The notes beneath the pieces are model-generated. The model was given only the letters and a program-made list of their open reading frames with translations. It did not search any database and was not told the origin of the DNA. A DNA stretch of 28,748 bases from a virus. The stretch covers positions 1-28,748 of IMG/VR virus record IMGVR_UViG_3300044641_001210; one strand, written 5' to 3'. Of the stretch, positions 4,136 to 28,639 are shown one piece after another. Position 1 is the stretch's first letter; the number at the start of each line of letters is the position of its first letter. The position numbers were made by a program, and so were the translations under genes.

Positions 4136-4162
4136 TTATAATATAGTTTTTAGTTTCGTGTT
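4136..4162 (-). promoter_or_regulatory. Candidate late promoter A (distal-tail unit)
   Basis: Read on the minus strand: AACAC (4162-4158), 14 bases, TATTATAA (4143-4136), GAT, ATG at 4132. The wider box is AAAACACGAA, identical to that before the tape-measure gene, and lies downstream of the terminase stop codon, so it is not explained by coding. It matches four other late gene starts in spacing. It does not match the Bacteroidota housekeeping -7 box TAnnTTTG. Confidence 0.6.
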
Positions 4163-5311
4163 TTACAAGGTCAAATAACTATCGTCGGTGTAATACATTT
4201 CTTTAATGTACATTACGGCATACCTCACGGCGTCCATTGCATCGTCGTAAAGCTTAACGGGTTCGTCCGTAATGTTGTCACCTACCTTTTTCCATTTATA
4301 ATTGTTGTATTCCTTTTTGAGGTTGTCGTCCTCTTGACACCACACCTTAAAAGTTTTAACGGCATTTATTCCACTCTTAACGTTCTTGTTTGCGTTGTTC
4401 ACGTTAAAGCCTGCATTTTGCATTTCGGCAATTATTTCGGGTCTTGAATAGTCGGCTAAGATATCAATCGTCTGTTCAATGTTTAGTTGTTTAAAGCGCT
4501 CAATTAATTCGCTTGTCGTTAAATAGCTTTCATAAATAACGGGTTCAATGTAAATGTCACCGTCACACCAATACACACGCATTAACGCCGTAGGGTGATT
4601 GTATCCAAAGTCCAAACCGTAAACAAAGTTCGTGAACCTTTCAGGGCGTTTAGGAATAAAGTCCCAAGTGTTGAAGATGTTCGACTTACTAATCGCCTTT
4701 TCACCTAGGGCATAGATTTGATATAACGCTTCATCGGTTCGTTTAAGGTCTTCGATTTGGCGTTTAATCGATTCGGGCAAAAATGGGTTGTCTTTGTATG
4801 TTGATTTGATTAAAACGCTTTCGTCTTTTGGTAGTTCATAAAGCCATGAACTTGAATCGGAAGGGTTATAATCGAAAATCATTTTAAACTCGGTACGCAT
4901 GTTCAATTGCTGGAAGTCTTCGAACCAAAGTTCGTTCGCCTCATTACACCACCCTAAATCACGCTTTCGACCCCTTACCTTTTGCTCATCGTCCACACTA
5001 AAGAACTCAACTAACGAACCATTACTAAAGCGGTAAATGTTTTCACTCATATTGTGGCTAGTCTTTTCATAAAGATTCAAGTCTTTAAGCACCTCAAAGA
5101 AGTCACGCATTACCGTTGCCCTCAAAGCTGGGAAAGTTTTCCTAACTATACTTACAACCTTATTCTGGTTTTGTAGGCAGTAAACAATAATCAGTTGGCA
5201 AAGTGAATAGGTCTTACTAGAACGTGAGCCGCCTTGGTTTATAATAAATCTTTTATCGGAAGTTAGTGCGTCCCAGTTCCAACTAAACACCTGCGTTGCG
5301 TTAATGTCCAC
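4163..5311 (-). CDS. terL: Terminase large subunit
   Basis: DNA-packaging ATPase and nuclease that cuts the replicated genome and drives it into proheads. The N-terminal ATPase has a Walker A-like GGSRSSKT at residues 27-34 and an acidic Walker B region near DLGWCNEANEL. The C-terminal RNase H-like nuclease shows LDFGYNHPT, ILADYSRPE and YDDAMDAVRYA, the three acidic clusters expected. At 382 residues it is compact but complete, of the PBSX/Terminase_3 type. It starts with GTG, overlapping the small subunit stop as TAGTG. Strong assignment. Confidence 0.95.
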   Translation of the reverse strand: MDINATQVFSWNWDALTSDKRFIINQGGSRSSKTYSLCQLIIVYCLQNQNKVVSIVRKTFPALRATVMRDFFEVLKDLNLYEKTSHNMSENIYRFSNGSLVEFFSVDDEQKVRGRKRDLGWCNEANELWFEDFQQLNMRTEFKMIFDYNPSDSSSWLYELPKDESVLIKSTYKDNPFLPESIKRQIEDLKRTDEALYQIYALGEKAISKSNIFNTWDFIPKRPERFTNFVYGLDFGYNHPTALMRVYWCDGDIYIEPVIYESYLTTSELIERFKQLNIEQTIDILADYSRPEIIAEMQNAGFNVNNANKNVKSGINAVKTFKVWCQEDDNLKKEYNNYKWKKVGDNITDEPVKLYDDAMDAVRYAVMYIKEMYYTDDSYLTL

Positions 5312-5727
5312 TATTCAGGTTTAATAATGTTTACTTTTATTTCACTGATTCGTTCGCCTTGGGTAGTGACGTCCGTCTTTTCGGTTAAGCCGTTTAATCG
5401 AGCGGTCAAGTTTGGAGCTTTATATTTTCCCGTTAACGTTCCTGAAATTTGGTTTTCTTCCCACTCCCTTCTAATGCACGTAACGACTCCCAAATACGCA
5501 ACATATGAATCATTCCAATTATCGATATATTGATGAACATTGAAACCGTATTTACGAAACACGTAAGCCTCGAAACCTTGTCTTGTATATGGTCGGTCAA
5601 CTACTTCTATTTGCACTCCTTTATTTGTAGCCTTTTGTATTTTATCGGGTGTATTGTCTACGTGAGCTTTAAATTCGTCCCATAGTTCTAATAGCTTTTC
5701 GGGTGTTTCAATATATTTTGATTTCAT
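5311..5727 (-). CDS. terS: Terminase small subunit
   Basis: Recognises phage DNA and hands it to the large subunit. The 138-residue protein has the pattern of the gp3-type DNA-packaging family: YIETPEKLLELWDEF near the N-terminus, a central PYTRQGFEAYVF followed by YIDNWN, a helical segment ending in TCIRREW, then GTLTGKYKAPNLTARLNGLTEK. A central K...VDRPYTRQGF segment fits a helix-turn-helix role in DNA binding. The start overlaps the preceding 69-residue gene by four bases (ATGA) and its stop overlaps the large-subunit GTG, so all three are likely translated together. Confidence 0.88.
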   Translation of the reverse strand: MKSKYIETPEKLLELWDEFKAHVDNTPDKIQKATNKGVQIEVVDRPYTRQGFEAYVFRKYGFNVHQYIDNWNDSYVAYLGVVTCIRREWEENQISGTLTGKYKAPNLTARLNGLTEKTDVTTQGERISEIKVNIIKPE

Positions 5728-5933
5728 AGTTCGTGTTTTTCGTGTTTTTTAAAGTGGTTTAGAAATTCGTCTTCGGTTATTTCTTCAACTGCTAGGTAAT
5801 GGTCTTGACTGGTTAAATAACAAATATAATGAAAACCTTGTTGCTTCATTGCGTCTTCGATACCTTCCGATATTGAAAGCATCTTTGTGCCTGAATCAAT
5901 TACAAAGAACCTATGTCGATTAGTCTCATCCAT
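5724..5933 (-). CDS. Small unknown protein (69 aa)
   Basis: Unrecognised. It starts MDETNRHRFFVIDSG and ends in a charged tail with a KHEKHEL repeat. It has no membrane segment and looks like a small soluble alpha/beta protein. It overlaps the preceding membrane peptide gene by 8 bases and the small terminase by 4, so it belongs to the first late unit. The tail codons create two AACACGAA copies like the late promoter box, but without a TATTATAA box at the right distance. Confidence 0.7.
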   Translation of the reverse strand: MDETNRHRFFVIDSGTKMLSISEGIEDAMKQQGFHYICYLTSQDHYLAVEEITEDEFLNHFKKHEKHEL

Positions 5934-6087
5934 TTGCGTTTTTTTCGTAAGCCGTAATTGCTAAATACGTAATGTAACTTATAAGTAACACACCGCCAAA
6001 TTTACCCGCCATTTCAGAACCGTTTATTAAACACACTCCGAAACCTATTGCAGTTATAAAGGTAATTAAAGCAAGGAAGTCTTTCAT
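5926..6087 (-). CDS. Small membrane protein (53 aa)
   Basis: Short gene beginning MKDFLALITFITAIGFGV, with two hydrophobic segments (about residues 4-21 and 31-47) separated by a short loop, ending EKNANG. It is the first gene of the terminase late unit: the ATG is three bases after a TATTATAA box and the stop overlaps the next start. A 24-residue peptide at 14482-14556 starts with the same MKDFL. Function unknown. Two-segment topology would allow a pinholin- or antiholin-like role, but nothing else supports that. Confidence 0.7.
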   Translation of the reverse strand: MKDFLALITFITAIGFGVCLINGSEMAGKFGGVLLISYITYLAITAYEKNANG

Positions 6088-6090
6088 AGT

Positions 6091-6118
6091 TTATAATATT
6101 AATTAATGGGTTCGTGTT
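6091..6118 (-). promoter_or_regulatory. Candidate late promoter D (terminase unit)
   Basis: Minus strand: AACAC (6118-6114), 15 bases, TATTATAA (6098-6091), ACT, ATG at 6087. The upstream box is inside the last codons of the sigma-like gene (Lys-His-Glu) and the box follows its stop codon, so the element marks the border between the middle genes and the first late unit. Confidence 0.55.
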
Positions 6119-6629
6119 TTAATAGGTCTCGGATTTCTTCTTTAATTTCAGTCAGCAACCCGTGCGCAGCAAAAGACGAAATGTTAAAATGCGCAGCTAT
6201 TGACCTAACGGTATTATAACCCTTGTCGTAATAAGTTTCAAAGAATATTTTCTTAACTCGGTCGGTCTGGGTTTGCTTATAGAGTTCTAAAGTAGCAATG
6301 TAGTTTTGAATTTTAATTTCTTCGGCTAAACTGATTAAATATTCGTCAATTTCTTCGTCTTTTTGTTGGTCAACCGTTAAGCAATTAACCAACTCCAACT
6401 TTGACGCCGTTCCGTTCCAAATAATCTCGGATTTAATTAAATGGAATAAATAACCTTTTGCTTCGTAGTCTTCTTTAATGTCGGGGTTAATTTGAACCAG
6501 TTTAAGGTAAGCGTTTGATATTACGGCTTCCGATGTTAGGTTAAGTTTGGAGCGTGAAACGAAATAATCAGTGTATTTTTTGACTTCAATGTAATTACTT
6601 TGTATGTACAAATCAAGAATGTCTTTCAT
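6099..6629 (-). CDS. Sigma-factor-like transcription regulator
   Basis: Probable ECF-type sigma-like protein of 176 residues. The N-terminal half resembles sigma region 2: LNLTSEAVISNAYLKLVQ, then EAKGYLFHLIKSEII, compare the A-x-D-I-V-Q-E-x-F-x-K-L and F-x-x-Y-L-x-x-I patterns of ECF sigmas. The C-terminal third resembles region 4 with a helix-turn-helix at TVRSIAAHFNISSFAAHGLL. The ATG at 6629 (MKDILDLY) is preferred over an upstream in-frame start whose extra 24 residues are hydrophobic and overlap the previous gene heavily. It lies directly upstream of the first late unit, fitting a middle-to-late switch. The family call is from motif pattern only. A general HTH regulator is the alternative. 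Confidence 0.6.
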   Translation of the reverse strand: MKDILDLYIQSNYIEVKKYTDYFVSRSKLNLTSEAVISNAYLKLVQINPDIKEDYEAKGYLFHLIKSEIIWNGTASKLELVNCLTVDQQKDEEIDEYLISLAEEIKIQNYIATLELYKQTQTDRVKKIFFETYYDKGYNTVRSIAAHFNISSFAAHGLLTEIKEEIRDLLKHEPIN

Positions 6630-6816
6630 AAAATTCAAGAAAGTCTTTAATATAGATTTTACGGTAAACCATACCACACATACAATTGCTTTCGTTACCA
6701 TTTAAGACGCGATTTCTAATCTTTTGAAACTCCTTCGCCACCTTTTTTGAATAACGTGCGGATTCGCTTAAAGATTTAACGCTTTCAATGTAGCTTATTT
6801 CAGCCTCTGTAAACAT
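6613..6816 (-). CDS. Small unknown protein (67 aa)
   Basis: Starts MFTEAEISYIESVKSL and is mostly helical and charged, with a Cys cluster N-C-M-C-G in the second half that could hold a metal or be structural. The internal ATG at 6816 is preferred because the longer frame overlaps the coding part of the upstream membrane gene. It overlaps that gene by 22 bases and the sigma-like gene by 17. Function unknown. Confidence 0.6.
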   Translation of the reverse strand: MFTEAEISYIESVKSLSESARYSKKVAKEFQKIRNRVLNGNESNCMCGMVYRKIYIKDFLEFYERHS

Positions 6817-7043
6817 AGATTTAAGATAAAAGCAAGTAAAGATACCAAACAAGCGGTAAAAACGTCTCCAGTGTAAGCTAAAGCGCTCCAAAACGCAACG
6901 CACTTAATACAACTTAATCCACCGTGAATCCAATTAAGATAAAAAGACGGTTTGAAGTAACCAAAAACACCATCAATTAAATATTGAAGTGGTTCGAATT
7001 CACACCACCACCACGCAAAAGCAATAAGTCCGATTATAATCAT
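6795..7043 (-). CDS. Small membrane protein (82 aa)
   Basis: Hydrophobic protein starting MIIIGLIAFAWWWCEF, with an N-terminal membrane segment, a middle part containing GGLSCIKCVAFW with two close cysteines, and a C-terminal hydrophobic stretch VFTACLVSLLAFILNLCL followed by QRLK. Probably two or three membrane spans with a positive tail in the cytoplasm. It overlaps the preceding gene by four bases. It lies in the middle region, away from the lysis genes, so a holin role is not supported. Confidence 0.65.
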   Translation of the reverse strand: MIIIGLIAFAWWWCEFEPLQYLIDGVFGYFKPSFYLNWIHGGLSCIKCVAFWSALAYTGDVFTACLVSLLAFILNLCLQRLK

Positions 7044-7243
7044 AACTTTTCAATTTCGTTTTTTACTTCAACTAGATACAAAACCTTATCAAATTCCTCG
7101 TTCATATCTTTACCACCACAAAATTCAAGCGACAAATTAACTGCAATTAAAGCGCATTGTAATACTTTAACATCTGTAGTTTTTAAATCTAATTCTTTAG
7201 AAAATAAATACCTCAATTTAGCGGCTTGTTCTTTAGATGTCAT
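7040..7243 (-). CDS. Small unknown helical protein (67 aa)
   Basis: Starts MTSKEQAAKLRYLFSKELDL and is mostly amphipathic helix with one Cys-Gly-Gly turn. It has no membrane segment and no known motif. Its stop overlaps the following membrane protein gene by four bases. Function unknown. Confidence 0.6.
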   Translation of the reverse strand: MTSKEQAAKLRYLFSKELDLKTTDVKVLQCALIAVNLSLEFCGGKDMNEEFDKVLYLVEVKNEIEKL

Positions 7244-7268
7244 AAGGTTATAGGCTTAAAATTGTTAT

Positions 7269-7397
7269 TCATTCTTCAGGGTTTAACCTTACAAAAGCTT
7301 CGTGACTAAATTCCTTTAAAAACTTGTTTGGAGTTCGTCTTCTCATAGCGTATTGACGAAAATTAGCACGTAAAAGTTTTGTTAGTAATCTGTTCAT
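7269..7397 (-). CDS. Small basic protein (42 aa)
   Basis: Short reading frame MNRLLTKLLRANFRQYAMRR... ending VRLNPEE, strongly basic in its first half with Arg-Arg-Arg at 19-21. It fills the gap between ninG and the 67-residue gene in the same direction. A small nucleic-acid-binding role is possible but unproven. The ATG is only five bases past the ninG stop, supporting co-translation. Confidence 0.5.
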   Translation of the reverse strand: MNRLLTKLLRANFRQYAMRRRTPNKFLKEFSHEAFVRLNPEE

Positions 7398-7401
7398 AAG
7401 C

Positions 7402-7938
7402 TCAAATATACAACTTTTTTAATTCTTTTATTTTTTCCTTATAAATCTCGTTGATTTCCTGAAGTTCTTCAATGGTAAATTTCTTTACAATATGCGCTTG
7501 TTCGTGCAATGCAAGTAATCTTTGCCCTCCTATTCGTTTTTCAATACCGATTTGGTAGTTTAAAAGGTTACCACTCAAGAACTGGTTGCACCTTTCACAC
7601 TGCAAGTGTACGTTGTCTTCGTTAAATCTAACGTTAGCGTGTCCCCCTGCGCTGAAATAATGACCTCCGTTTTCTTTTTTCGGCTTTTCATTGCAGGAAA
7701 TACAAGGTAACCCAGCGTCTCGAAGACGAATAAATTTATTAAACGTGGTTTGTGCTATTTTCAACCAATCACTAGCCGTCATTAAGTCCTTTTTTAACTT
7801 CGCTTTTTTCTTATTCCATTGTTTAACCTCGTGTTCTTTAATCATTGCTTTGACGCATAGGTCGTGAAAGCAGTTCTTTTGTAGTGAGGTGTAAGGTGTG
7901 AATTCAGCACGGCAGTATTTGCATTTTCGTGTTTTCAT
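7402..7938 (-). CDS. ninG: NinG-like recombination protein
   Basis: Matches the lambda NinG (Rap) family, which helps resolve or process recombination intermediates. The N-terminal zinc-finger-like part has Cys at 6, 9, 23 and 28. The central helical part runs into FNKFIRLRDAGLPCISC, and the C-terminal HNH-like core reads GGHYFSAGGHANVRFNEDN followed by C-x-x-CN and LSGN. Length (178) is close to the family's usual 180-200. The ATG overlaps the preceding Mom-like gene stop by four bases. Together with ERF and exonuclease upstream it forms a recombination toolkit. Confidence 0.9.
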   Translation of the reverse strand: MKTRKCKYCRAEFTPYTSLQKNCFHDLCVKAMIKEHEVKQWNKKKAKLKKDLMTASDWLKIAQTTFNKFIRLRDAGLPCISCNEKPKKENGGHYFSAGGHANVRFNEDNVHLQCERCNQFLSGNLLNYQIGIEKRIGGQRLLALHEQAHIVKKFTIEELQEINEIYKEKIKELKKLYI

Positions 7939-8651
7939 AGTTGTTTATAATGTTTCGGGTAAGGTTGTTCTTTTAATAAACAGTCTTTTATACATTTTTG
8001 ATTAATAAAATAAATATATCTGAATTGCCTCAACTCTAATTTTACCGCAGATTCTTTCCAATTTTTAGCCTCTAATTCAGCTTTTTTATTTCTTGAGTTA
8101 TTGGTTACAATTGAGTTATGAAAAATTTCATTTTCAAATTCCCACATTATATTAGTGTGTTCACCGTAAAATTTAAAATTTGCGGCTTGGTAAACAATAC
8201 CTAAACCCCCGCATCTTTCATCTGCAAAAGATTGAATCCATTTAACAGTTTTAAATTTACTTCTTATATACTTAATCGCGTAACTTATTGCTTTGCTTTC
8301 GGTGTTTCTTTCGGCTTTATCATCAAACCACATTCGATTTAATTCTTTGTATTCATTTAATTTTGTATTTAATACTATTGAATTCATACTTTGTGGATTC
8401 ATTGCATAACCAAATTGCAAACAACCTAGTAATTCACCATTTATAAAACAACCTAAATGTATATGAGTTGTCGCATCGTTGCAAACTTTATGGCTATAAT
8501 GATTTTTAATAATCATTTCTTTACTTTGCTTTTTAGGTATTTCTTTTACATAAAAACTTTCAGACCCAAAACCGATTATTTCACGGCTTCCAAAAATTGA
8601 TTGTTGAGTGCTATAAATTAAATCTTTTTTTTCCATTTCTCTAGTCTTCAT
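7935..8651 (-). CDS. Mom-like DNA modification enzyme (GNAT fold)
   Basis: Resembles the phage Mu Mom family, acyltransferase-like enzymes that modify adenine in phage DNA and block host restriction. Visible blocks are NHYSHK at 50-55, LGCFINGELLGCLQFG at about 66-81, ELNRMWFDD at 103-111, RNTESKAIS at 115-123, SFAD at 141-144 and IVYQAANF at 152-159. This order is what I expect for Mom-type proteins. A second in-frame ATG at 8636 (MEKKDLIY) is an equally good start. The first overlaps the upstream stop by 11 bases. It lies next to a PP-loop enzyme. Family call from pattern recognition. Actual substrate unknown. Confidence 0.75.
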   Translation of the reverse strand: MKTREMEKKDLIYSTQQSIFGSREIIGFGSESFYVKEIPKKQSKEMIIKNHYSHKVCNDATTHIHLGCFINGELLGCLQFGYAMNPQSMNSIVLNTKLNEYKELNRMWFDDKAERNTESKAISYAIKYIRSKFKTVKWIQSFADERCGGLGIVYQAANFKFYGEHTNIMWEFENEIFHNSIVTNNSRNKKAELEAKNWKESAVKLELRQFRYIYFINQKCIKDCLLKEQPYPKHYKQL

Positions 8652-8898
8652 AAATTCTCAATTCGTTTATTCGTTGGTTAGCTTTCATTAATTCTAAATT
8701 CATTTGGTGCAATTTAGTCGTTAAAATTTTGTTTTCGTGTTTCAGTTGCTTAAATACCTCATCGACTAACAAAAGGTCTTGAATTATTACCTCGATACCT
8801 TCGGCTTTTTTCGGTTCAAGTTTCTTTCGAAAAATCATTTTGTTAATCGTTAGCGACAAATTAACGGACGCTAAAGTTTGTTTAAGTGCTTTATCCAT
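8641..8898 (-). CDS. Coiled-coil protein (85 aa)
   Basis: Starts MDKALKQTLASVNLSLT. The second half, from about residue 45, is a heptad-like coiled coil (VFKQLKHENKILTTKLHQM and on). It is soluble and charged. It lies between the PP-loop enzyme and the Mom-like enzyme and could be a small partner or unrelated. Function unknown. Confidence 0.6.
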   Translation of the reverse strand: MDKALKQTLASVNLSLTINKMIFRKKLEPKKAEGIEVIIQDLLLVDEVFKQLKHENKILTTKLHQMNLELMKANQRINELRIYED

Positions 8899-8909
8899 AG
8901 TTGTTTATT

Positions 8910-9743
8910 TTAAAGTCCACAGTAACCCGAATCGCATTCGTTGAAATCGTCTTCGAATAAATCCAGTTGTAATTTATGTTGTTTAATCTTTTTGTAAGTA
9001 ATTCCTTTTTTAAATGTATTTCCGTTTTTTTGTTCTTGGTCAATAAACCAGTTAAATTTATTTTCTTGGTGTACCGATAAGTAATTTAAAAGTAATTCGT
9101 TCCGATGAAAACACCCAACACAATTATTTCTTTGAGCAAATCTCACTGCTTTACCTTGCCAAAAGTTCTCAATCGTATCTTTGAAAATTACGTCTTCTAT
9201 TAATGGAAAGCGAACCATTCTATACGGTAATTCTTGCCACTTATTACGACCGTTTTTTTCACCTACTTTAAATTTAAAGTTTTCAACTCCTTTTATTTGT
9301 CGTTCAATCATTTTATTTGCACGGCTTATCTCGTTGGCTCTAAATCCTATTCTCATTTCAATAGGTAAATCCGTATTTTCATAACACCATTGTGCAATTG
9401 GTTTAACTTTTAAATCAGTTGTGCAGTATCGAGTCATTATGTTCGGCAAATAAGCGCTATGTTTTAAAATAACATCTTCAAAAGTTGTGTTGCTTAACCA
9501 AGTAATTTCTTTACCGATAAATTGCTCAAGGTCTAACATAGTGTAAATGATTTCGTCCATCTCTAAAGTACCAATAAATTCAGTTCCAATTTTATCGCTT
9601 ACAATTTGTCGAATTTTAGCGTCAGGAAACAAACAATTTTTGTCATTTGTACGAACCAAAGCAAATACATTATAATCCGCTGGGTAATTTGCAGCAATAA
9701 AACTAGATGTTTTGCCACCGCTTAAACTGTTAACTGTTTTCAT
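8910..9743 (-). CDS. PP-loop ATPase, PAPS reductase-like
   Basis: Adenine nucleotide alpha hydrolase-like enzyme of the phosphoadenylyl-sulfate reductase family. The PP-loop is SGGKTSSF at 8-15. Further marks are RYCTTDLKVKP at 105-115, IGFRANEISRA near 132, and a Cys-x-x-Cys site NNCVGCFH at 206-213, with two more cysteines near the C-terminus (CDSGYC). The cysteines suggest an Fe-S or metal site. Phage members of this family occur widely and their substrate is mostly unknown. No dnd-type partners are present here. Sulfur-related or nucleotide-modifying chemistry is inferred. Placement two genes before the Mom-like enzyme hints at DNA or tRNA modification. Confidence 0.85.
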   Translation of the reverse strand: MKTVNSLSGGKTSSFIAANYPADYNVFALVRTNDKNCLFPDAKIRQIVSDKIGTEFIGTLEMDEIIYTMLDLEQFIGKEITWLSNTTFEDVILKHSAYLPNIMTRYCTTDLKVKPIAQWCYENTDLPIEMRIGFRANEISRANKMIERQIKGVENFKFKVGEKNGRNKWQELPYRMVRFPLIEDVIFKDTIENFWQGKAVRFAQRNNCVGCFHRNELLLNYLSVHQENKFNWFIDQEQKNGNTFKKGITYKKIKQHKLQLDLFEDDFNECDSGYCGL

Positions 9744-9747
9744 ATAA

Positions 9748-11544: not shown

Positions 11545-11549
11545 AGTTT

Positions 11550-12635: not shown

Positions 12636-13075
12636 TACCATAACCATTTAATAAATTTTCTAATTACTCCTATTTGAACCGTGTTTGTATTGTCAATTTT
12701 AGGTTGTTCTTGAAATGTTTCAGGTTCAATTTTAACTTTACGATTGTATTGTCTTTTTTGGTCGAATAAAGTAGGTGTTTGGCTTATTTCTTTTAAACGT
12801 CTTGTTTGATTAAAATCAAATATTTCATCTAAAAAAGAATTTACAATTTTAATATTTGGCTCGTATACGTCATTCCAATAATAAAAGCCATTATTTTTTT
12901 TATAAATTATTTCTTTTTTTATTAAGAAATAAGGGAAATTATTTGAAGTGTTAAATTGCTTTGATAAAATTCTTAAATCAGAATATTTTCCGCTTTTTTG
13001 TTGGTAAGCCGTTAAACAATTTAAATACTTTGAAATAGTTTCAGGCCTTGAGCCTCTTCTTTTTACTGTTTTCAT
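12635..13075 (-). CDS. Unknown basic protein (146 aa)
   Basis: Basic protein starting MKTVKRRGSRPETISKYLNC. The first 60 residues look like a small helical, possibly winged-helix domain (SDLRILSKQFNTSNNFPYFLIK). The rest is polar and ends KFIKWLW. Lies between ERF and exonuclease genes, both likely recombination proteins, with overlapping stops and starts on both sides, so a DNA-binding accessory role is reasonable. No family recognised. Confidence 0.6.
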   Translation of the reverse strand: MKTVKRRGSRPETISKYLNCLTAYQQKSGKYSDLRILSKQFNTSNNFPYFLIKKEIIYKKNNGFYYWNDVYEPNIKIVNSFLDEIFDFNQTRRLKEISQTPTLFDQKRQYNRKVKIEPETFQEQPKIDNTNTVQIGVIRKFIKWLW

Positions 13076-13605
13076 AGCTGGTTAAGTTGATTAATTTGTG
13101 ACTGCGTTAATTGAAATTTGTTTAAATCGTCTTTTGAAGCATTGTTGTTTTCATAGGCAATTATAAAATTTTGAAAACGTTCTTCTGAAAGTAAAGGCTT
13201 TTGCGTTTTAACCGCTTCTGCGCTTAAACTTGCATCGTCGTCTACAGCTTGTAGGCTTAATAAACTTTGAAGGGTGTAACGTCTATAATACGTAATTGCA
13301 GAACCGATTTTTTGAGGGTCTAAAATTTCGGGCAACTTCATACAACTTTCGCAAATTTCACCCGAATCAATGTCAACAATTCGACTAAACACAAAACCAT
13401 CTTCAATTGGTTGTAATAATAAAAGGTTGTTTTCTAGTAGAACGGGTTCAACCTCATCAATTAGCGCGTTAATGTCAGCGTAATTGTTTTTAAAGTGTGG
13501 ATTTTTAGCGTTCTTCGCTACCTTCTTAATTGATTGCTTCGCTTTATGAAGCTTTTGCAAAAATGTTAAGGTCGCAACCTCAACCGTTGTTTCTTGTTTT
13601 TTCAT
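13072..13605 (-). CDS. erf: ERF-type single-strand annealing protein
   Basis: Recombination protein that anneals single strands, of the ERF superfamily. Marks are KNAKNPHFKNNYADINALID at 31-50, LLENNLLLLQP to about 66, DSGEICESCMKLP, DPQKIGSAITYYRRYTLQSLLSL at 96-118, then AVDDDA. The order is characteristic. The C-terminal 50 residues are polar and variable. The ATG at 13605 (MKKQETTVE) is preferred; a TTG 42 bases upstream overlaps the previous stop. The exonuclease gene lies two genes downstream. Confidence 0.92.
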   Translation of the reverse strand: MKKQETTVEVATLTFLQKLHKAKQSIKKVAKNAKNPHFKNNYADINALIDEVEPVLLENNLLLLQPIEDGFVFSRIVDIDSGEICESCMKLPEILDPQKIGSAITYYRRYTLQSLLSLQAVDDDASLSAEAVKTQKPLLSEERFQNFIIAYENNNASKDDLNKFQLTQSQINQLNQL

Positions 13606-13630
13606 TTTTATTAGATTTGATTGTTTAAAA

Positions 13631-14032
13631 TTATAACATTTTTCCAATAAGCCCGTCTAAACGAACTAAATTTTTTGCGTAATTAACCCAAATATCATCT
13701 TCAGGGTAGTAATTTAAAGGAAAAGCCAATTTAACCTTTTCGATGTTTTCAATTATTTCGGGGTGTCCGTAACCCTCGTAAGCGTTAACAACTGCTTTAA
13801 TTGCATGAATTGTTACAGCGTGATTTCTATGGAATTCTTTTCCAGCTTCAGCAAGTGACGCACCGCTTAACCATTTCCAAACCATACCAACCGACCGCCA
13901 TAATACAACCTCACGTTTTCTAGTGTCAATGAATTCACCCTCAAACACGAACGGGCAAGCGTTGTAAAAATCAATCATTTCGAATTTAGTACATTCAGTT
14001 AGTTTGGCTATTTTCCCTCTGTTGTATTTCAT
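13631..14032 (-). CDS. DnaA domain IV-like DNA-binding protein
   Basis: 133 residues. Residues 59-81 (SLAEAGKEFHRNHAVTIHA plus IKAV) follow the C-terminal DnaA signature, S-L-x-x-I-G-x-x-F-x-R-D-H-x-T-V-x-H-A-x-x-K-I, which recognises DnaA boxes. There is no AAA+ domain, so the protein looks like a free-standing origin-binding module. It could recruit host DnaA-like machinery or mark the phage origin. The preceding 50-residue gene overlaps its start by 38 bases. An alternative later start at residue 19 (MIDFYN) would remove that overlap. Confidence 0.65.
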   Translation of the reverse strand: MKYNRGKIAKLTECTKFEMIDFYNACPFVFEGEFIDTRKREVVLWRSVGMVWKWLSGASLAEAGKEFHRNHAVTIHAIKAVVNAYEGYGHPEIIENIEKVKLAFPLNYYPEDDIWVNYAKNLVRLDGLIGKML

Positions 14033-14732: not shown

Positions 14733-14767
14733 CAAATGTAAACAACTTTTTTAAATGTAAATAACTT
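14733..14767 (-). promoter_or_regulatory. Early promoter with tandem direct repeat
   Basis: On the minus strand TACATTTG (14740-14733) fits the Bacteroidota -7 box TAnnTTTG, 29 bases before the first early ATG (14704). It overlaps one copy of a 15-base repeat: AAGTTGTTTACATTT (14748-14734) and AAGTTATTTACATTT (14767-14753), offset by 19 bases and differing at one base. No good -33 TTTG is visible at the expected distance. The repeat may be a tandem operator or, given the DnaA-like gene nearby, iterons. Confidence 0.55.
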
Positions 14768-14850: not shown

Positions 14851-14880
14851 AAAAAAAGAGGTGTACCGAAATACACCCCT
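14851..14880 (-). terminator. Intrinsic terminator after the exonuclease gene
   Basis: Minus strand: GGGGTGTA, loop TTTCGG, TACACCTC, then TTTTTTT. Eight base pairs (one G-T), followed by a run of seven T. It ends transcription of the DnaQ-like gene just before the early promoter. Confidence 0.9.
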
Positions 14881-15720: not shown

Positions 15721-15745
15721 AAAAAAAGCGGTTGTTATGCCGCTT
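15721..15745 (-). terminator. Intrinsic terminator after the lysin gene
   Basis: Minus strand: AAGCGG, loop CATAACAA, CCGCTT, then a T-run. The stem overlaps the last codons of the lysin gene. Six base pairs followed by seven or more T. Ends the lysis unit. Confidence 0.8.
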
Positions 15746-16292
15746 CGAATTCGTCTACTATTACGAAACTCCAAATAAATTGTGGTTTCATTAAGTTAAG
15801 AATCTTAACAAAGTCGGGTGTATTATTAAACACTAAACAACCCTCAGACCAACCGCCAATGTTTTCGATTATTCTAGTTGATTTTAAATCGTGTGTTGCA
15901 GCGTGAAAATTAAAACCTCGAATGTCCGTTTTTATTTCGGTTGTTGGGTTCGTTTTTCCGTCAGTTGTAAAGTCCCTACGATAAGGAAATCCTTTTCTTT
16001 GAACTCCAGCAGGTGTTTTCCCTCGGTGCAACCCTAAATAATACCCGTCGTAGTTCCAAACGTTAGCCTCAACAACTCCAGTCCCTTTGTGTCCTTTATT
16101 CGTGGTGCAAGTTGTAACCATTACGAATTTAGAACCTTTAAAGATGTAACATTTATCGTCAAACTTGTCGGCAGCATCTTCGTTTGAGCGCACAAATAAC
16201 GCCCAGTAATTAGACGGTATTTTTTCAAAAGTCTCCAAGCTTTTAACCTTGTCTAGTAACTGCGCATCGGTGTATTTTCTTACATTGTTCAT
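15735..16292 (-). CDS. Putative endolysin, L,D-transpeptidase-like (YkuD-like)
   Basis: 185 residues, third gene of the lysis cassette. The catalytic-looking core is FHAATHDLK, then GGWSEGCLVF: His134, Ser149, Glu, Gly, Cys152. The H-to-C gap of 18 and the S-x-G-C site fit the YkuD L,D-transpeptidase fold, in which a Cys nucleophile works on peptidoglycan stems. Such enzymes can also cut stem peptides, so a wall-degrading role is reasonable. No signal peptide is seen, so release would rely on the holin. The usual S-H-G-C is here S-E-G-C. Placement next to holin and spanin is the main support for calling it the lysin. Confidence 0.65.
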   Translation of the reverse strand: MNNVRKYTDAQLLDKVKSLETFEKIPSNYWALFVRSNEDAADKFDDKCYIFKGSKFVMVTTCTTNKGHKGTGVVEANVWNYDGYYLGLHRGKTPAGVQRKGFPYRRDFTTDGKTNPTTEIKTDIRGFNFHAATHDLKSTRIIENIGGWSEGCLVFNNTPDFVKILNLMKPQFIWSFVIVDEFEAA

Positions 16293-19411: not shown

Positions 19412-19439
19412 TAATAATATAAAAAAATAGCAGTGTGTT
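19412..19439 (-). promoter_or_regulatory. Candidate late promoter E (portal and lysis unit)
   Basis: Minus strand: AACAC (19439-19435), 15 bases, TATTATTA (19419-19412), AGT, ATG at 19408. The box differs by one base from the other four, but spacing and the three bases to ATG are the same. It follows the terminator of the tail-tube gene. Confidence 0.55.
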
Positions 19440-19441: not shown

Positions 19442-19474
19442 AAAACACAAAACCCCCGACGTTAATCGAGGGTC
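19442..19474 (-). terminator. Intrinsic terminator after tail-tube gene
   Basis: Minus strand: CCCTCGA, loop TTAACG, TCGGGGG, then TTTTGTGTTTT. Seven base pairs (one G-T) with a T-rich tail. It closes the protease, capsid and tail-tube unit, and candidate promoter E starts within it on the 3' side. Confidence 0.85.
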
Positions 19475-19493
19475 TTATTAGATATAGTTTAGG

Positions 19494-20022: not shown

Positions 20023-20053
20023 AAAAAAGGGGTAAGGGATAACCCCACCCCTC
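20023..20053 (-). terminator. Intrinsic terminator between capsid and tail-tube genes
   Basis: Minus strand: GGGGT, then GGG, loop TTAT, CCC, then ACCCC, then TTTTTT. About eight base pairs with a small internal loop. Leaves the tail-tube gene to read-through, or to a promoter I do not see. Confidence 0.75.
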
Positions 20054-21972: not shown

Positions 21973-21975
21973 ACC

Positions 21976-22002
21976 TTATAATAGTATAAAAATTTGTTTG
22001 TT
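21976..22002 (-). promoter_or_regulatory. Candidate late promoter C (protease and capsid unit)
   Basis: Minus strand: AACAA (22002-21998), 14 bases, TATTATAA (21983-21976), GGT, ATG at 21972. The upstream box differs at one base from AACAC. It sits next to the -7 box of the divergent plus-strand operon (22011-22018), leaving eight bases between the two. Confidence 0.55.
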
Positions 22003-22010
22003 ATTTTTTT

Positions 22011-22018
22011 TATATTTG
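22011..22018 (+). promoter_or_regulatory. Host-type -7 box for the plus-strand operon
   Basis: TATATTTG fits TAnnTTTG, the housekeeping -7 box of Bacteroidota, and would start RNA about 9-10 bases before the ATG at 22034. A -33 TTTG is present but 14-17 bases upstream, a little short. It would make a very short leader. Confidence 0.5.
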
Positions 22019-22033
22019 TTGAAAACTTATAAA

Positions 22034-22603
22034 ATGATAAAACTAGGTAAACAAGAAATTCCGAATGTAATTAACGAACTAACTATTGAACAATTTGAAA
22101 AGGTTAGCGAGTTCACAAATAACCAAGAACTGGACGCTTTTGAGAAATGGGTGTCCGTGTTCACCTACCTTGGAGCAGACGAAAACGAAGTTAATGAAAT
22201 GGATTTTTCAGAATTCAAAGACAAGGTTAAAGAATTCAATACCGTAACCTACAAAGCACCAATAAAGTTTAAAAAGACGGTTGAACTTGAGGGGTATAAA
22301 TACGTTAGTTACGACAAAAAATTCAAGTTATCAGTTCGCGACATTAAGCACATTGAAAAGATAATTAAGAAAGACCCGACCCGTTACGTTAGTAAAATGT
22401 TAGCGGTAATATTTAAACGTGAAGACCTCGACACGGTTGAACATTATTCGGATGCTCACATCAAACATAAAGCAAATTTGTTTAAGTCGTTGAATGCTGA
22501 AATCGCACTTCCGTTTATGGCGTATGTTGCCGAAAAATTAAAAGATACCGCTAAACAAATGACCGATGAAGTTGCCGCAGTCGTGGAATCAAATAACGGT
22601 TAA
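22034..22603 (+). CDS. Tail assembly chaperone-like protein 1
   Basis: 189 residues. Starts MIKLGKQEIPNVINELTIEQ and has a central LSVRDIKHIEKIIKKDPTRY, then YVSKMLAVIFKREDL. Resembles the next protein in both parts: T-I-E-Q-F near the start, the acidic segment, and a helical A-V-I-F block. Such small helical acidic proteins before a tape measure are usual for tail assembly chaperones, but here the gene is on the opposite strand to all other late genes. The start was taken as ATG 22034; a TTG upstream would add a hydrophobic, AT-derived peptide. Moderate confidence. Confidence 0.55.
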   Translation: MIKLGKQEIPNVINELTIEQFEKVSEFTNNQELDAFEKWVSVFTYLGADENEVNEMDFSEFKDKVKEFNTVTYKAPIKFKKTVELEGYKYVSYDKKFKLSVRDIKHIEKIIKKDPTRYVSKMLAVIFKREDLDTVEHYSDAHIKHKANLFKSLNAEIALPFMAYVAEKLKDTAKQMTDEVAAVVESNNG

Positions 22604-23297
22604 TCAATTTATTGAACTTGCAAAGCTTGAACAAATTGAATTTGATTCGTTGTTTGAAATGCAGGTTGAAATGCTTTCGATTTTAGCGGATGAAGACCCA
22701 GATGAATTTTACGACCTAGAAATTGACGAACTTAACCAATTACTCGAACCGCTTAAATTTTTAAGGCAAGAACCCCGTGTTAAAATAACCCAACAAATCG
22801 ATAAATTCACGTTTAAGCCTTTCGAAAAAATTACCCTAGGCGAATTTATTGATACCGATTATTTTTGTGTTCAAGACAAAATCGGAAATATACCGATTAT
22901 TTGCGCAATATTTTACAGACAAACCAACTTTGATGAGTGGGGAAATCGTGTTTTTGAACCTTATAAATACAACTTATTCGAACGTGCTGAAGTGTTTAAA
23001 GAAATACCTGTTACTTCGGTGTTTGGCGTAGTTCACGAATACCTAAAATTTCGGGATAATTTTACTAAGCAATATGAAAACCTATTTGCACCGCAATTTG
23101 AAGACGAAGAGGACACCACCGAATTAACTCCTGAAGAAAAAAAGGAAGTTGAAAACGAAAAGAAACGTTCAAAGTTCGCTTGGGAAAGCCTACTTTATAA
23201 TTTAGCAGGTGAAGACATCACGAAAATAGACGCAATCACAGACCTTAATTTAACCTTTGTGTTTAATATGCTTTCAATGAAGCACGTTTTGAGTTAA
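22566..23297 (+). CDS. Tail assembly chaperone-like protein 2
   Basis: 243 residues, starting MKLPQSWNQITVNQFIELAK. The N-terminal two thirds align loosely with protein 1, including ITVNQF against LTIEQF and ICAIFYRQTNF against LAVIFKREDL. The extra C-terminal part (KKRSKFAWESLLYNLAGEDI, then TKIDAITDLNLTFVFNML) looks like the second chaperone of a gpG/gpGT-type pair. It overlaps gene 1 by 38 bases in the +1 frame; an in-frame stop (22560-22562) just before its ATG argues for its own start, not a frameshift fusion. Its end overlaps the converging gp10-like gene by four bases. Confidence 0.55.
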   Translation: MKLPQSWNQITVNQFIELAKLEQIEFDSLFEMQVEMLSILADEDPDEFYDLEIDELNQLLEPLKFLRQEPRVKITQQIDKFTFKPFEKITLGEFIDTDYFCVQDKIGNIPIICAIFYRQTNFDEWGNRVFEPYKYNLFERAEVFKEIPVTSVFGVVHEYLKFRDNFTKQYENLFAPQFEDEEDTTELTPEEKKEVENEKKRSKFAWESLLYNLAGEDITKIDAITDLNLTFVFNMLSMKHVLS

Positions 23298-23969: not shown

Positions 23970-23980
23970 TTTTTTATTTA

Positions 23981-24595: not shown

Positions 24596-25707
24596 TACTT
24601 AGTAATATTTAAATTGATTACTGAAGCTATTGAAGCCGTTACCGTTATTTTACTACCTATTGCAATTGTATTTCCAAGCGTATAAGCCACGTTATCATCT
24701 TGAATAGTAATAGTTGGCGAGTTTAGAACATTTGAAACCGATGTTATAACCATATTATAAGGTGCGTAAAAGTTAACGGTAAGTGCGTCAATTAATTCAA
24801 CTGTGTATTGTATTCCAGCATCTATCCAAAGTTGCGTAGAAGCTTGATATTCTAACGATGCTCCTCCCGTTGGGTTGGTTATATAGACGTTATGAAGTTC
24901 GTCAAGTTCCCACCCGTTCATTACTTTGACATAAATTTTACCATTGTTTGCGTGGGCATATTCAACGTAACCGATAACTACGATGTGACCCGTTGCACCA
25001 GTTGGTTTTATGTTTGTTAATTTACCCGCTACCGTTGGACTTAAATATAAAACGTCTCCATCCGTCCAAGTTTCGCCTTGTAAACTTCCAGTCGTGTTTA
25101 TGTTTTCAAGTTGCCCAACCGTAATAATAAACCCTTCTTGATTTGTGGCTATTGTTTCAGTTACAAGTCCTATTGTGTCTGCTGAATTATTATCGTTGTT
25201 TGCTTGAGCCAAAGCAACTGCTAAGCGTCCACCTTGCGCACCACTAACCCTTACCGCTTGATAAGCTGCTTTTGTTAGTGTAGTGTTAGGTGTTACTTTG
25301 TTAACTACTCGTGCAACTAAATCAACTCCATTTTTTAAAGTTACGTTACCGCCTTTTAAAAGTGTTTCAGAACTTCCTATTGTGTTATTCCATTGCGTAG
25401 AACCTACGACAAAACCAGCACCTGAAGGTGACACGTTTAAATTAATATGGTCAGCGGTTATGTTATAAGTCCCGAGGTCTACGTCGTTAGTTGCACCCGT
25501 GTAAGGAACATAACCCGTTAAACTTGGAATCGTTGGTAAATTATCTAAATCATTGTAGTCATTAGAAAAAGCCGTTGCACCTAAATCAGCACTGTTTGCT
25601 TTTAATGCTAAAGCGTCAAATACCGCATCTTCGCTCGGTGCTTTATCTGTAACCCCGTCTGTAATTGTTTGGCTTACTTGTGAGGGTATGTTTATATTTA
25701 CTGCCAT
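24595..25707 (-). CDS. Tail fibre-like protein (370 aa)
   Basis: Starts MAVNINIPSQVSQTITDGVT and includes TGYVPYTGATNDVDLGTYN at about 64-82, a pattern common in phage tail fibres, followed by a repeat-like beta region and a middle domain (TLTKAAYQAVRVSGAQGGRL to YVEYAHANNGKIYVKVMNG) seen in many fibre proteins. The C-terminus is a short beta domain. Translated in one unit with the lectin-like protein after it. Likely forms the fibre or spike that carries the lectin. Confidence 0.7.
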   Translation of the reverse strand: MAVNINIPSQVSQTITDGVTDKAPSEDAVFDALALKANSADLGATAFSNDYNDLDNLPTIPSLTGYVPYTGATNDVDLGTYNITADHINLNVSPSGAGFVVGSTQWNNTIGSSETLLKGGNVTLKNGVDLVARVVNKVTPNTTLTKAAYQAVRVSGAQGGRLAVALAQANNDNNSADTIGLVTETIATNQEGFIITVGQLENINTTGSLQGETWTDGDVLYLSPTVAGKLTNIKPTGATGHIVVIGYVEYAHANNGKIYVKVMNGWELDELHNVYITNPTGGASLEYQASTQLWIDAGIQYTVELIDALTVNFYAPYNMVITSVSNVLNSPTITIQDDNVAYTLGNTIAIGSKITVTASIASVINLNITK

Positions 25708-26336
25708 ATTATATTTATATCAAAGTTTGCTAAAGTTACAGCGGTCTCAGTTGCTACAAGAACCGAATCCAAATATACGTTATATGTTGTATCGGGCAAA
25801 ATTAAAGTATCGCCACAATCAACACTAACGTTATATGAATCGTCCGAGTTTTGAACGGTTACAGGGTCGCAATCACAAGTGTTTGTTACGGGTATTATTG
25901 GTTCTAAAGGTATTTCGCAAACTGAATACTGATTAACCTCAAATGTAAAAGTACCAACCCAACCTGCAACGTAGTCTAAATCAAAGTTGTTTAAAGGTGT
26001 CATTGTAGGGTCGATAAGAATATCAATGCTTAAATCGTTCCCGTCGGTGTAATATAAGTAAAGGTCGTTTAATATTAATTGTGTGTCACTTAAAATCGTG
26101 TTTATGTTTGCGCGGTCTTTTTGAATAATGTCAACACAATAAACATCAAGCGTGAAAACGTTCGTGTTCATTCCGCTAGTCTCCGAAGTTGGAACAACAT
26201 AAACCAAAGGATACCTTTCGTCAAGTGTTGAAAAGTTCGGCATCTGTTCCCTAAATTCACCGCCAAATTTCTTTACTTGAATATGAGCATTGAAGAACGT
26301 TTCGAGTTTATTTAATAATTGCCAATAGCTTGTCAT
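25698..26336 (-). CDS. Putative tail completion/terminator protein (212 aa)
   Basis: The first 140 residues (MTSYWQLLNKLETFFNAHIQ ... VDIIQKDRANINTILSDTQLI) have the mixed alpha/beta pattern of a minor tail or tail-terminator protein with a helical N-terminus. The last 60 are a separate beta domain with a C-x-C pair (TCDCD). Start overlaps the tape measure stop (ATGA). Position next to the tape measure is the main evidence. Confidence 0.5.
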   Translation of the reverse strand: MTSYWQLLNKLETFFNAHIQVKKFGGEFREQMPNFSTLDERYPLVYVVPTSETSGMNTNVFTLDVYCVDIIQKDRANINTILSDTQLILNDLYLYYTDGNDLSIDILIDPTMTPLNNFDLDYVAGWVGTFTFEVNQYSVCEIPLEPIIPVTNTCDCDPVTVQNSDDSYNVSVDCGDTLILPDTTYNVYLDSVLVATETAVTLANFDINIIWQ

Positions 26337-28609
26337 AGTGTTGCGTTTTCTTCCATTCGTTTTATTCTACTTTGTGAACTTGTTATGTCGCTTTCAACAA
26401 CTACCGCCTTAACAACTTGTTGCTTTTCGACACTTTGCGCACCTTGTAAAGTATTCATTTCGTTAGCTTGTCCGAACAAATTAGTTTGAGGGGTTGCAGG
26501 TTGCACACCACCGCCACCACCCGAAGCACCCGCACCACCTGAAGCACCCGAAGCACTTGCGCCTTTGAATTGTGTTGAAGCTATTTTCTTAATGTTAGCA
26601 ATACCCGCAGCCGTAACCATTGCCGCAGCAATAGCACCCCTTATAATACTTGTCGGGTCACCCGCTACAATTTGCGAAGTATATGCGGCAACCGCACCCT
26701 TTAACGTGTCAATTACTGACATCGCTATATTTGCAGCCTTATTGATTTTAAACGCTTTTTCTTGTTGCTTTTCGCTTTCACCTGCAAAGGCTTGTATTAC
26801 GTCGTTAACGGTGCTTAAACCCGTCTTTGTAGCGTCTGCAACGGAGTTACCTTTCTCGATAGCCGCTTGAACTTCTAATTGTCTTTCTTGGTCAATTAGT
26901 TCCATTTTCTTCTTTTGGTAAGCTAACTGAATTTCTTCTTGAACTGCTGCGTCTAATTTTGCAAGTTCCATCTTTTCAGTATACCATTTTTCCAAAGCTG
27001 CTTTTTCGTTTTGACGTGCTATTTCTTCATCACTTAAGCCTACTTGGTTAAGTTCGTTTTTTAGTGCCGTTATTTGGTCGTTATATGTTTTTAGTTTTTC
27101 CGCGTCTTCTTTTGCATACTTTTCAACTAAGGCTTGTTCGTCTAGTAGCTGTTGTTCTTGAAGCTGCGCCGTTACCGTTGCATCGTCTTTATATAGTTCA
27201 AGTTTTTCTTTATACCAGTCGCTTAAACCGTCTCTCTCTTTTTGACGTGTGGCTTCCGTGTCAGTTAGCGTTTTATAATTTAATTCCCTTTGAAGTAAAG
27301 TAAGGGCGTCCGCTTGTTCTTGTAGCTTAACCTTTTCCTCTTCGTCGTATTTGTCATTTACCGCTTTACGTTCAGCGTTGTAGTTGTTTAGTAATGTAGT
27401 TGTGTCTTGTCCGTATTTTTTAGCTAGTAAAAACGCTTCTCGGTAATTGTTATCAATGTCTTCAAGTTCTTGTTTTCGTTCGCTTAGTTGGTCATATCGG
27501 AATTTATTTTCTAGTTCGGCAATTTTTTCTAAAGCCTCTTTGCGGTCTTCAATTCGTTTTTTATTATTTTCTGCAGCCTTGGTTGTTGCCTCGGTTGAAG
27601 CTGTTGCCTCCATTATTTGAAGCTGGTTATATGAATCCGCTATTGAATTAAATGCGTCGTTTGCACCTTTAAATGCATCGTCTCTTTTCTTTTGTGTTTC
27701 TTCAATAAACTTTTTACCCTCTTCGCTTTGAATATTTCTAGATTTCAAGTCGGCTAAAACTAGGTCATAAATTTTTAAGCGCATTTGTAACTCCTTTTGT
27801 AACTGAAGTTGGTAACGCATTGAAGCTATTATTTTTTCTTTTTCTAGTTCCACCGTAGACTTACCTTCGGCTTTTGCTAAGTCAATTCGTCTTTGATATT
27901 CTGACTGTTCATTATTAAAATTAGCTTCACGCATCATCCGCATTTCTTCAGCTCGTCGCATTTCGGCTTCGTGTCTCGCTTCTGCGTTTGCCTCGCCCTC
28001 TTCCGCTGCGCCCTCACTTAAACCAAACCACGAAAGGAATTCTTTAATAGCGTCAATTACTATATTTATAACGTCACCTATAAAACCAAACACAGCACCA
28101 ATTACGTCAAGTATTGGTTGAAGTATTCCGAGCGCATTCATTAAGGCAGCAATAGCTCCAACAATTGCGGTAATAGCAATAACCAATAAAAATATAGGGT
28201 TAGTTAATAGCATTATTCCAAACTGAATAAACGTTTTACCTAACGTGGCAACCGTAGACGTTAACCCTTTTAAACCATTTGAAATAGTTTCAGGACTTAT
28301 TGAGGTAACCGTCTGTTGAAATATTTTAGCTTTTTCGCTAGCTTCTTCAAAGTCTAAGTTCATTAACGAATCTTGTAAACTACCGAATGAATTAGTTACC
28401 TGTTCAAACTTTGAACCACTTGCAAAAGTTGAAATTTGTTCGTTAGCGTCGGCAATCCTATCCTTTAAACCCCCTGCCGCTTCCGCAAGTTCCTGCATTC
28501 TTTTCGGGTCGGTAGCGTTTAGTAATTCGTCACGAACCGCTTTTAATTCCGCTTTGAGTTCTTTAAGCCCTCCGACTTGAATAGTACCTACATTAATTGT
28601 ACCCGCCAT
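26333..28609 (-). CDS. Tape measure protein
   Basis: 758 residues, setting tail length. Residues 15-95 are helical and charged. Three or so hydrophobic segments lie at 125-195 (IMLLTNPIFLLVIAITAIVG and so on), as usual in tape measures that form a channel in the host membrane. A long alpha-helical coiled-coil part runs from 205 to 575 with a degenerate repeat of about 65 residues, at 365-425, 436-502 and 513-575. The end has a Gly/Ser/Ala-rich linker (683-702). At about 0.15 nm per residue it predicts a tail of around 110 nm. First gene of a late unit, with promoter element B upstream. Confidence 0.9.
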   Translation of the reverse strand: MAGTINVGTIQVGGLKELKAELKAVRDELLNATDPKRMQELAEAAGGLKDRIADANEQISTFASGSKFEQVTNSFGSLQDSLMNLDFEEASEKAKIFQQTVTSISPETISNGLKGLTSTVATLGKTFIQFGIMLLTNPIFLLVIAITAIVGAIAALMNALGILQPILDVIGAVFGFIGDVINIVIDAIKEFLSWFGLSEGAAEEGEANAEARHEAEMRRAEEMRMMREANFNNEQSEYQRRIDLAKAEGKSTVELEKEKIIASMRYQLQLQKELQMRLKIYDLVLADLKSRNIQSEEGKKFIEETQKKRDDAFKGANDAFNSIADSYNQLQIMEATASTEATTKAAENNKKRIEDRKEALEKIAELENKFRYDQLSERKQELEDIDNNYREAFLLAKKYGQDTTTLLNNYNAERKAVNDKYDEEEKVKLQEQADALTLLQRELNYKTLTDTEATRQKERDGLSDWYKEKLELYKDDATVTAQLQEQQLLDEQALVEKYAKEDAEKLKTYNDQITALKNELNQVGLSDEEIARQNEKAALEKWYTEKMELAKLDAAVQEEIQLAYQKKKMELIDQERQLEVQAAIEKGNSVADATKTGLSTVNDVIQAFAGESEKQQEKAFKINKAANIAMSVIDTLKGAVAAYTSQIVAGDPTSIIRGAIAAAMVTAAGIANIKKIASTQFKGASASGASGGAGASGGGGGVQPATPQTNLFGQANEMNTLQGAQSVEKQQVVKAVVVESDITSSQSRIKRMEENATL

Positions 28610-28612
28610 AAT

Positions 28613-28639
28613 TTATAATAGAAAAATTTCGTTCGTGTT
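28613..28639 (-). promoter_or_regulatory. Candidate late promoter B (tape-measure unit)
   Basis: Minus strand: AACAC (28639-28635), 14 bases, TATTATAA (28620-28613), ATT, ATG at 28609. The wider box AAAACACGAA overlaps the stop codon of the tail-tip gene only at its first bases. Spacing and box are identical to element A. The upstream part lies in the terminal repeat, so it appears intact only once the circle is closed at the left end. Confidence 0.6.

Follow-up and report, generated by a model that had tools for sequence, protein, structure and literature searches.

A phage-encoded sigma factor, five bipartite late promoters, and mostly leaderless late mRNAs make up the single explanation that we favor, at a probability of about 0.86, for an element that recurs in the window, by which we mean the whole IMG/VR record of 28,748 bases (classed as linear) analyzed here. 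Under this proposal, the phage would encode a small sigma factor with sigma2- and sigma4-like domains only (6099-6629). The host sigma factor would read TAnnTTTG promoters to express the early genes, probably including the sigma-like gene, and the phage sigma would then guide the core RNA polymerase of the host to five promoters, each of which combines a -35-like AAAAC(AC) with, 16 to 17 bases after the AAC, a -10-like TATTATWA. The first transcribed base would be the A of the ATG at most sites, and the packaging, tail, tape-measure, protease-capsid, and portal-lysis mRNAs would be leaderless or nearly so.

The element at unit heads in the window and in related phages

A preliminary description of this DNA had placed TATTATWA-N3-ATG at five named starts. 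With both strands of the 28,748 bases scanned, TATTATWANNNATG had exactly five matches, all on the minus strand, at those starts (4132, 6087, 19408, 21972, and 28609) and nowhere else in the window, compared with a mean of 0.07 and a largest count of 1 in 100 dinucleotide shuffles. The report of an AACAC, once AACAA, lying 14 or 15 bases upstream of the box was confirmed at all five sites: AACAC-N14/15-TATTATWA matched four times (mean of 0.03 in shuffles), the corresponding half of the fifth site (start 21972) is AACAA, and the spacing is 14 bases at 4132, 21972, and 28609 and 15 at 6087 and 19408. The box-to-ATG distance is fixed at 3 bases while the AACAC position varies by one, and the base preceding the ATG is T at 5/5 sites, again as described. 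The longer AAAACACGAA, previously credited to two sites, is present at three (28609, 6087, and 4132). Among the starts listed in the window, which number 43 rather than 47, the box precedes these five only; it is absent before the other 38, in keeping with its reported absence from the early genes checked.

The five unit heads thereby place promoters of putative phage-sigma type before late-function genes in several units (Table 1), whose late status we infer from gene function. Family matches identified the tape-measure protein (TMP), protease, capsid-like proteins, portal, and terminase of the five units, while no family match came up for the 4132 gene or for the genes that open the units at 6087 and 19408; the name "distal tail" for one unit comes from the earlier reader and from position.

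Table 1. Coordinates of the promoter elements, the sigma-like gene, and associated signals in the window
Feature	Position	Strand	Remarks
Late promoter element, tape-measure unit	28613..28639	-	AACAC-N14-TATTATAA, 3 bases before ATG 28609; conserved in relatives
Late promoter element, protease-capsid unit	21976..22002	-	AACAA-N14-TATTATAA, before ATG 21972
Late promoter element, portal-lysis unit	19412..19439	-	AACAC-N15-TATTATTA, before ATG 19408; terminator-like hairpin directly upstream
Late promoter element, packaging unit	6091..6118	-	AACAC-N15-TATTATAA, before ATG 6087; overlaps 3' codons of sigma-like gene
Late promoter element behind TerL	4136..4162	-	AACAC-N14-TATTATAA, before ATG 4132
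Gene of divergent sigma2+sigma4-like protein, 176 aa	6099..6629	-	Probable start 6629; upstream ATG at 6701 in open frame
Terminator-like hairpin ending protease-capsid unit	19447..19478	-	Same place in 14/14 representatives
Host-type -7 box TATATTTG	22011..22018	+	Divergent gene 22034; 28/30 phages
Host-type -7 box TATATTTG	7403..7410	-	5 bases before 7397 gene, head of small genes leading to sigma-like gene
Host-type -7 box TACATTTG	14733..14740	-	Before 14704 gene; possible early promoter; consensus match only

A search with the large terminase subunit (TerL) returned 104 related stretches, from which 80 metagenomic loci with TerL identities of 74 to 95% were kept; the full records behind 30 of the 80 were used for genome-level comparison. 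Among those listed, the closest cultured phages by TerL were Parabacteroides and Bacteroides phages (~35% identity), and window bases 1 to 25000 had no near DNA relative among cultured phages. Given these nearest cultured phages and the TAnnTTTG boxes, the host probably belongs to Bacteroidota.

In close relatives, a comparison that had been suggested beforehand, the window's element is retained at orthologous starts. Distant lineages have a different box in the same place, which recurs within one phage before several different genes. The box is CTATTATAA in clade A, TACTTATTA with variants in B, TCATTATAG in C, TTAATATAG in D, ACAATATA in E, ACATTATAA in F, CTATTCTAA in G, TACAATTA in L061 and L033, and ACCAAGTT in L069; clades A to G, the number of box types, and many of the boxes were assigned by eye. 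Unit heads of the relatives thus carry an AAC-N16-box element whose box is common within a phage and differs between lineages. Within-phage sharing was tested on the 22 bases before the ATG in 11 lineage representatives. Protease and portal heads matched at 8.18 of 9 positions within a phage and at 6.69 between phages (P = 5e-5); the TMP-portal and TMP-protease pairs each gave P = 5e-5, and pairs involving the tail head gave P = 0.0005 to 0.003. The TMP lacks the element in clade B, L061, and L069, and the tail homologue does not stand directly behind TerL in clades E and F and in L051, L061, and L069; lineages with such deviating TMP or tail heads were retained in the test. The AAC lies at exactly -30 in 17/44 unit heads of the 11 lineages.

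Behind TerL, the curated AAC-N16-box pattern was found in 70/81 sequences. The 11 dropped from this count are L026, L036, and L062, which end at TerL; L030 and L031, whose AAC lies inside TerL, beyond the stretch searched; L051, L056, L070, and L083, whose box or -35 falls outside the pattern; and L084 and L085, with a shorter gap. The AAC-to-box gap behind TerL in the latter two is ~11 to 13 bases rather than 16, and an insertion of 7 residues lies near residue 28 of the L085 sigma protein; gap and sigma protein length may be linked in this pair. L145 (TerL identity, 72%), found after the element was defined, has a sigma homologue (E = 1.4e-55) and AAC-N16-ACAATATAAGTATG, with the box, read behind TerL, recurring at two further places in its 17-kb locus, once where the sigma gene ends and once 7 kb behind TerL. 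A lax whole-genome scan for the element was noisy, with high controls in A-rich lineages (for example, 24 vs 16 in G027) and without a template for G025 and G026.

Promoter or ribosome signal, and the predicted start of transcription

In the window, the hairpin at 19478-19447 stops 38 bases short of the portal-unit ATG, and the element takes up this gap. The hairpin ahead of the portal element has a folding energy of -15.1 to -22.6 kcal/mol, below that of all 100 shuffles, in 14/14 representatives; the same comparison gave 0/14 at the protease head and 1/14 at the TMP head. Since this terminator-like structure lies directly upstream of the portal element, transcription must restart there. Terminator scanning was near chance overall (7 vs 8.4 and 15 vs 11.0), and the hairpin claim therefore rests on the 14-phage comparison and its shuffles. 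A generic sigma70 scan was likewise uninformative (38 found vs 52.4 expected; 50 vs 40.7 expected). Other terminator-like hairpins on the minus strand lie at 15725-15746 behind lysis-region genes, at 20029-20053 behind the capsid-like gene, and at 14857-14880 before early-type genes.

The preliminary description had named as its alternative a translation-initiation signal in the mRNA leader, read by the ribosome and hence at a fixed distance from the ATG. The constant 3 bases in the window, kept while AACAC shifts by one, would fit such a signal, as would an offset of 11 in 23/28 A/G sites of clade A. However, the bipartite element is intact where the ATG is displaced: box-to-ATG offsets are 13, 14, and 16 in clade B, 23 to 25 behind TerL in clade E, 31 in L055, and 21 and 25 in L061 and L033. 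Retention of AAC-N16-box while the ATG moves argues against a ribosome signal, as do the mere 38 bases between the terminator-like stem and the portal ATG, which hold the element, and a box that tracks a DNA-binding-like protein and varies by lineage though the hosts' ribosomes need not. We therefore regard a translation signal as highly improbable. The element is very probably a promoter, and the proposal of phage-specific late promoters gains support from the lineage-wise change of the box, the upstream hairpins, and the intact element at displaced ATGs.

Host-type boxes behave differently. TAnnTTTG precedes the 22034-type divergent gene in 28/30 genomes (2.27 expected from shuffles; the misses are G013 and G020) and the 7397 gene in 8/8 phages in which that gene was found. 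As a candidate for the late heads, the host-type promoter was rejected, with TAnnTTTG in 0/57 protease and portal heads, and the late box does differ from it, as first described. Next to the protease gene, the host-type box stays the same and the adjoining late box varies by lineage. With the sigma gene lying behind small genes that follow TATATTTG, the sigma factor would be an early or middle product. The sole plus-strand unit (22034-23297), also behind a host-type box, consists of overlapping frames at 22034-22603, with a homologue in 30/31 genomes searched, and 22566-23297, with no Pfam or PHROG match.

The ATG lies at the modal offset from the box in 61/86 distinct element sites, this offset being 11 in clades A, G, C, F, E, and D, 13 in B, and 14 in L061 and L033. 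Where the ATG is displaced, a pyrimidine-A step is kept at the modal offset in 19/25 sites, compared with 0.07 at neighboring offsets; the 86 sites are related, with ~8 independent groups among the 25. On the simplest reading, the A at the modal offset would be the first transcribed base. Because of these two observations, most late mRNAs, those whose ATG sits at the modal offset, should be leaderless, and displaced-ATG sites would have a leader of 1 to 18 nt. Comparison most favors the earlier suggestion, phage-specific late promoters that start at or near the ATG; a leaderless start is a prediction, and a minority of sites in relatives would have leaders.

A variant of this proposal keeps the promoters and the sigma factor but places the starts several bases upstream of the ATG, giving short leaders. 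Some sites in relatives clearly would have the 1- to 18-nt leaders just mentioned, and at many promoters, start sites vary by a few bases. The pyrimidine-A step at 19/25 displaced sites, where the A of ATG would be, speaks against this variant, as do the late starts of Salmonella phage 7-11, which lie 6 to 9 bases from the -10 element, about where the ATG is here (accessible text of PMC8948821). We consider short leaders as the rule unlikely, but a possibility to be reckoned with.

The sigma-like protein and its covariation with the promoter

The sigma-like gene sits between early-type genes and the terminase unit, and the packaging-unit element overlaps its last codons (6118-6091), likewise in other lineages. 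Homologues spanning 20 to 99% identity to the window protein in the alignment occur in 71/80 related loci; the 9 loci without one all have TerL <1.1 kb from the contig start. L019 and L065 have a sigma homologue elsewhere in the same record. The L007 record is probably a chimeric contig, since a block at its start is inverted, with the break at the sigma neighborhood, and its end is a perfect palindrome (L094 and L095); L012, L020, L031, L044, L063, and L080, which are 13- to 25-kb records without a sigma homologue, were taken for fragments. In L008 (1534-1919), a frameshift divides the sigma-like frame into overlapping parts of 69 and 79 aa. Elsewhere in the window, 7935-8651 (minus strand) encodes a Mom-like DNA modification protein (PHROG 1384, E = 3.7e-53) and adjoins a phosphoadenosine phosphosulfate reductase-like gene (8910-9743); an ERF recombinase lies at 13072-13647.

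AlphaFold with 35 homologues predicted a helical protein of two domains only, sigma2- and sigma4-like (mean pLDDT, 82.5; pTM, 0.43). The best Foldseek hit to the PDB had an E value of 1.1e-3 (probability 1.00), and the best 50 of 280 rows were by title all sigma factors, initiation complexes, or the sigma mimic PhyR; no PDB match reached E <= 0.001 for the window model or that of L061. The L061 model, of the most divergent type (pLDDT, 75.3), had the same kind of neighbor list, again with all 50 listed rows of these kinds by title, and for each of the two models the alignments with the listed sigma neighbors extend over both domains. VIA-align gave a middling Z of ~8 for sigma chains, with non-sigma rows, some of them HTH proteins, among the best, and region-4-only alignments with low rmsd. 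In a fold search against viral models, 22/24 informatively named rows were sigma factors or RNA polymerase subunits, and the ECF sigma of phage GAP52 was among the matches (E = 0.011).

By sequence, the family resembles known sigma factors only weakly. PHROG 351, "RNA polymerase sigma factor," matched with 8/35 members at E <= 1 (best, 1.2e-5), and Pfam gave only weak HTH matches to the family. The match to RpoE was not significant (P = 0.2), and hhalign of the single gp47 sequence against the family alignment gave no match. A PDB sequence search returned nine unrelated rows with the profile (best E = 0.062) and none with the L061 protein. Against 50,697 phage records, the window protein had no match at E <= 1, and the L061 homologue had three, to hypothetical proteins (E = 0.6 to 0.9), which were taken for chance. 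The -35 contains AAC and stands 16 ± 1 bases from the -10, as for ECF sigma factors, with shorter gaps in L084 and L085; the -10 boxes are AT-rich and lineage-specific, and not of the CGT type that is typical, not universal, for ECF. Because of these -10 boxes, we call the protein ECF-like and claim no membership of a described ECF group. The 6099-6629 product is likely the factor reading the late element, and the 176-aa protein would presumably bind core RNA polymerase and initiate transcription.

For distance tests, the 70 pattern sequences were reduced to 61 with sigma and full TerL and to 29 after removal of those with <3% sigma difference. Promoter distance correlated with sigma distance given TerL (0.63, P = 0.0002; partial Mantel test, 29 phages) and not with TerL given sigma (0.07, P = 0.09). 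Clade B is nearest to the window's clade A by TerL (0.18) but ranks among the farthest in both sigma (0.71) and promoter. With seven other proteins as controls, the promoter-sigma partial correlation was 0.39 to 0.79 (all P = 0.001; two of nine queries had too few sequences, namely the TMP and the sigma frame in its longer reading), and the reverse partials, for the other protein given sigma, were -0.04 to 0.31, being significant for the 4132, 7938, and 2727 genes (0.15 to 0.31). Promoter divergence tracks the sigma-like protein and not terminase. Common descent or codon constraint could in principle produce shared elements devoid of function, since sites within a clade are related and the packaging-unit site overlaps sigma codons. 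Yet within one phage the box is common to different genes, and in other lineages it changes jointly before them, and the partial Mantel tests control for TerL and the seven other proteins; we find this account barely credible.

A sliding window over the alignment showed additional association with the -10 box to be strongest at sigma residues 61-74. The partial correlation was 0.44 in 34 phages, five of them added with hand-set boxes, and 0.56 in 17 lineages with typed boxes (P = 0.0005 for the maximum over windows, by a permutation that breaks the whole promoter-sigma association and tests the peak only roughly). For the -35 box, the sliding window gave no clear covariation peak along sigma. 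In the model, residues 61-74 cover the last part of the fourth helix (54-70) and the turn that follows. We take them to be region 2.3-2.4, the part of sigma that contacts the -10 element.

It is conceivable that the 176-aa protein instead works as an activator, binding at the AAC half and bringing the holoenzyme with host sigma to the box. Its C-terminal HTH is the best supported part, through the weak Pfam matches and the low-rmsd region-4-only alignments, and the sigma2 similarity is weak in sequence. However, covariation with an N-terminal segment involves the -10 box and not the -35, the alignments of both models with their listed PDB neighbors take in both domains, and the 0/57 count speaks against host-type boxes at these heads. 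An activator is thus improbable, and a sigma factor remains the reading that we prefer. In a more detailed form, to which we give slightly better than even odds, a single late sigma would have diversified into ~9 natural sigma-promoter specificity types, with -10 preference arising mainly from the sigma2 segment at ~61-74 and most late mRNAs leaderless; the 3' codons of the sigma gene would, in many lineages, hold one of the promoters that the factor itself reads, so that factor and target are co-inherited.

Relation to known systems and biological meaning

According to the accessible text on Salmonella phage 7-11 (PMC8948821), gp47 is a late sigma factor whose promoters read GTAAtg-(16)-aCTA, and early genes use host sigma. 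A phage-encoded late sigma, bipartite promoters with a 16-base gap, and host sigma for early genes are thus common to both systems, which differ in boxes, phage group, and host, with no detectable sequence link; the present phages also have many lineage-specific boxes and starts predicted at the ATG. The same portion of that paper describes phiEco32 gp36 as likewise a phage sigma, for middle and late genes, but with single-element promoters (tAATGTAtA) and no region 4. Bacterial ECF sigmas are similar in having sigma2 and sigma4 only and AAC in the -35 region, with -35 to -10 gaps of 16 ± 1 bases in ECF41 and 16 to 17 bases in Streptomyces sigma E (excerpts of PMC3426412 and PMC6767563); in contrast, the phage family is without a -10 of CGT or TC type and matches ECF families weakly in sequence. 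The Bacteroidota host promoter TAnnTTTG, as given in part of PMC7366714, likewise precedes the 22034 and 7397 genes, but none of the 57 late protease and portal heads. Phage AR9, in the available sections of PMC5312081, has a phage-specific late promoter containing AACA, AACA-(6N)-TA/G, with the start at a TA or TG step, but differs in its multisubunit phage polymerase, other spacing, and 5' UTRs of 26 to 491 nt.

Phage late sigmas with bipartite promoters (PMC8948821) and the ECF combination of AAC and ~16 bases (PMC3426412 and PMC6767563) are thus already known from these texts. We found no description of late promoters or sigma factors of Bacteroidota or Flavobacterium phages in the open-licence literature searched, and within that literature, the sigma family, the joint lineage change of sigma and promoter, the promoter inside the sigma gene, and the probable leaderless rule appear to be new.

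Leaderless late mRNAs as a rule, if true, would be notable for the host phylum, given that ~3.7% of 5' UTRs in Bacteroides thetaiotaomicron are <10 nt (sections of PMC7366714), a surprise lessened by the AR9 paper, whose available part already calls phage transcripts often leaderless (PMC5312081). For an uncultured phage group seen in 80 metagenomic contigs, the proposal supplies a testable temporal program, and it assigns a likely role to a protein family that has no reliable name in the libraries searched. Matched sets, each of a single sigma with three to five jointly changing promoters, would offer a natural experiment on how a sigma and all of its promoters can shift specificity without loss of the genes served, and the sigma-promoter pairs could act as orthogonal expression parts.
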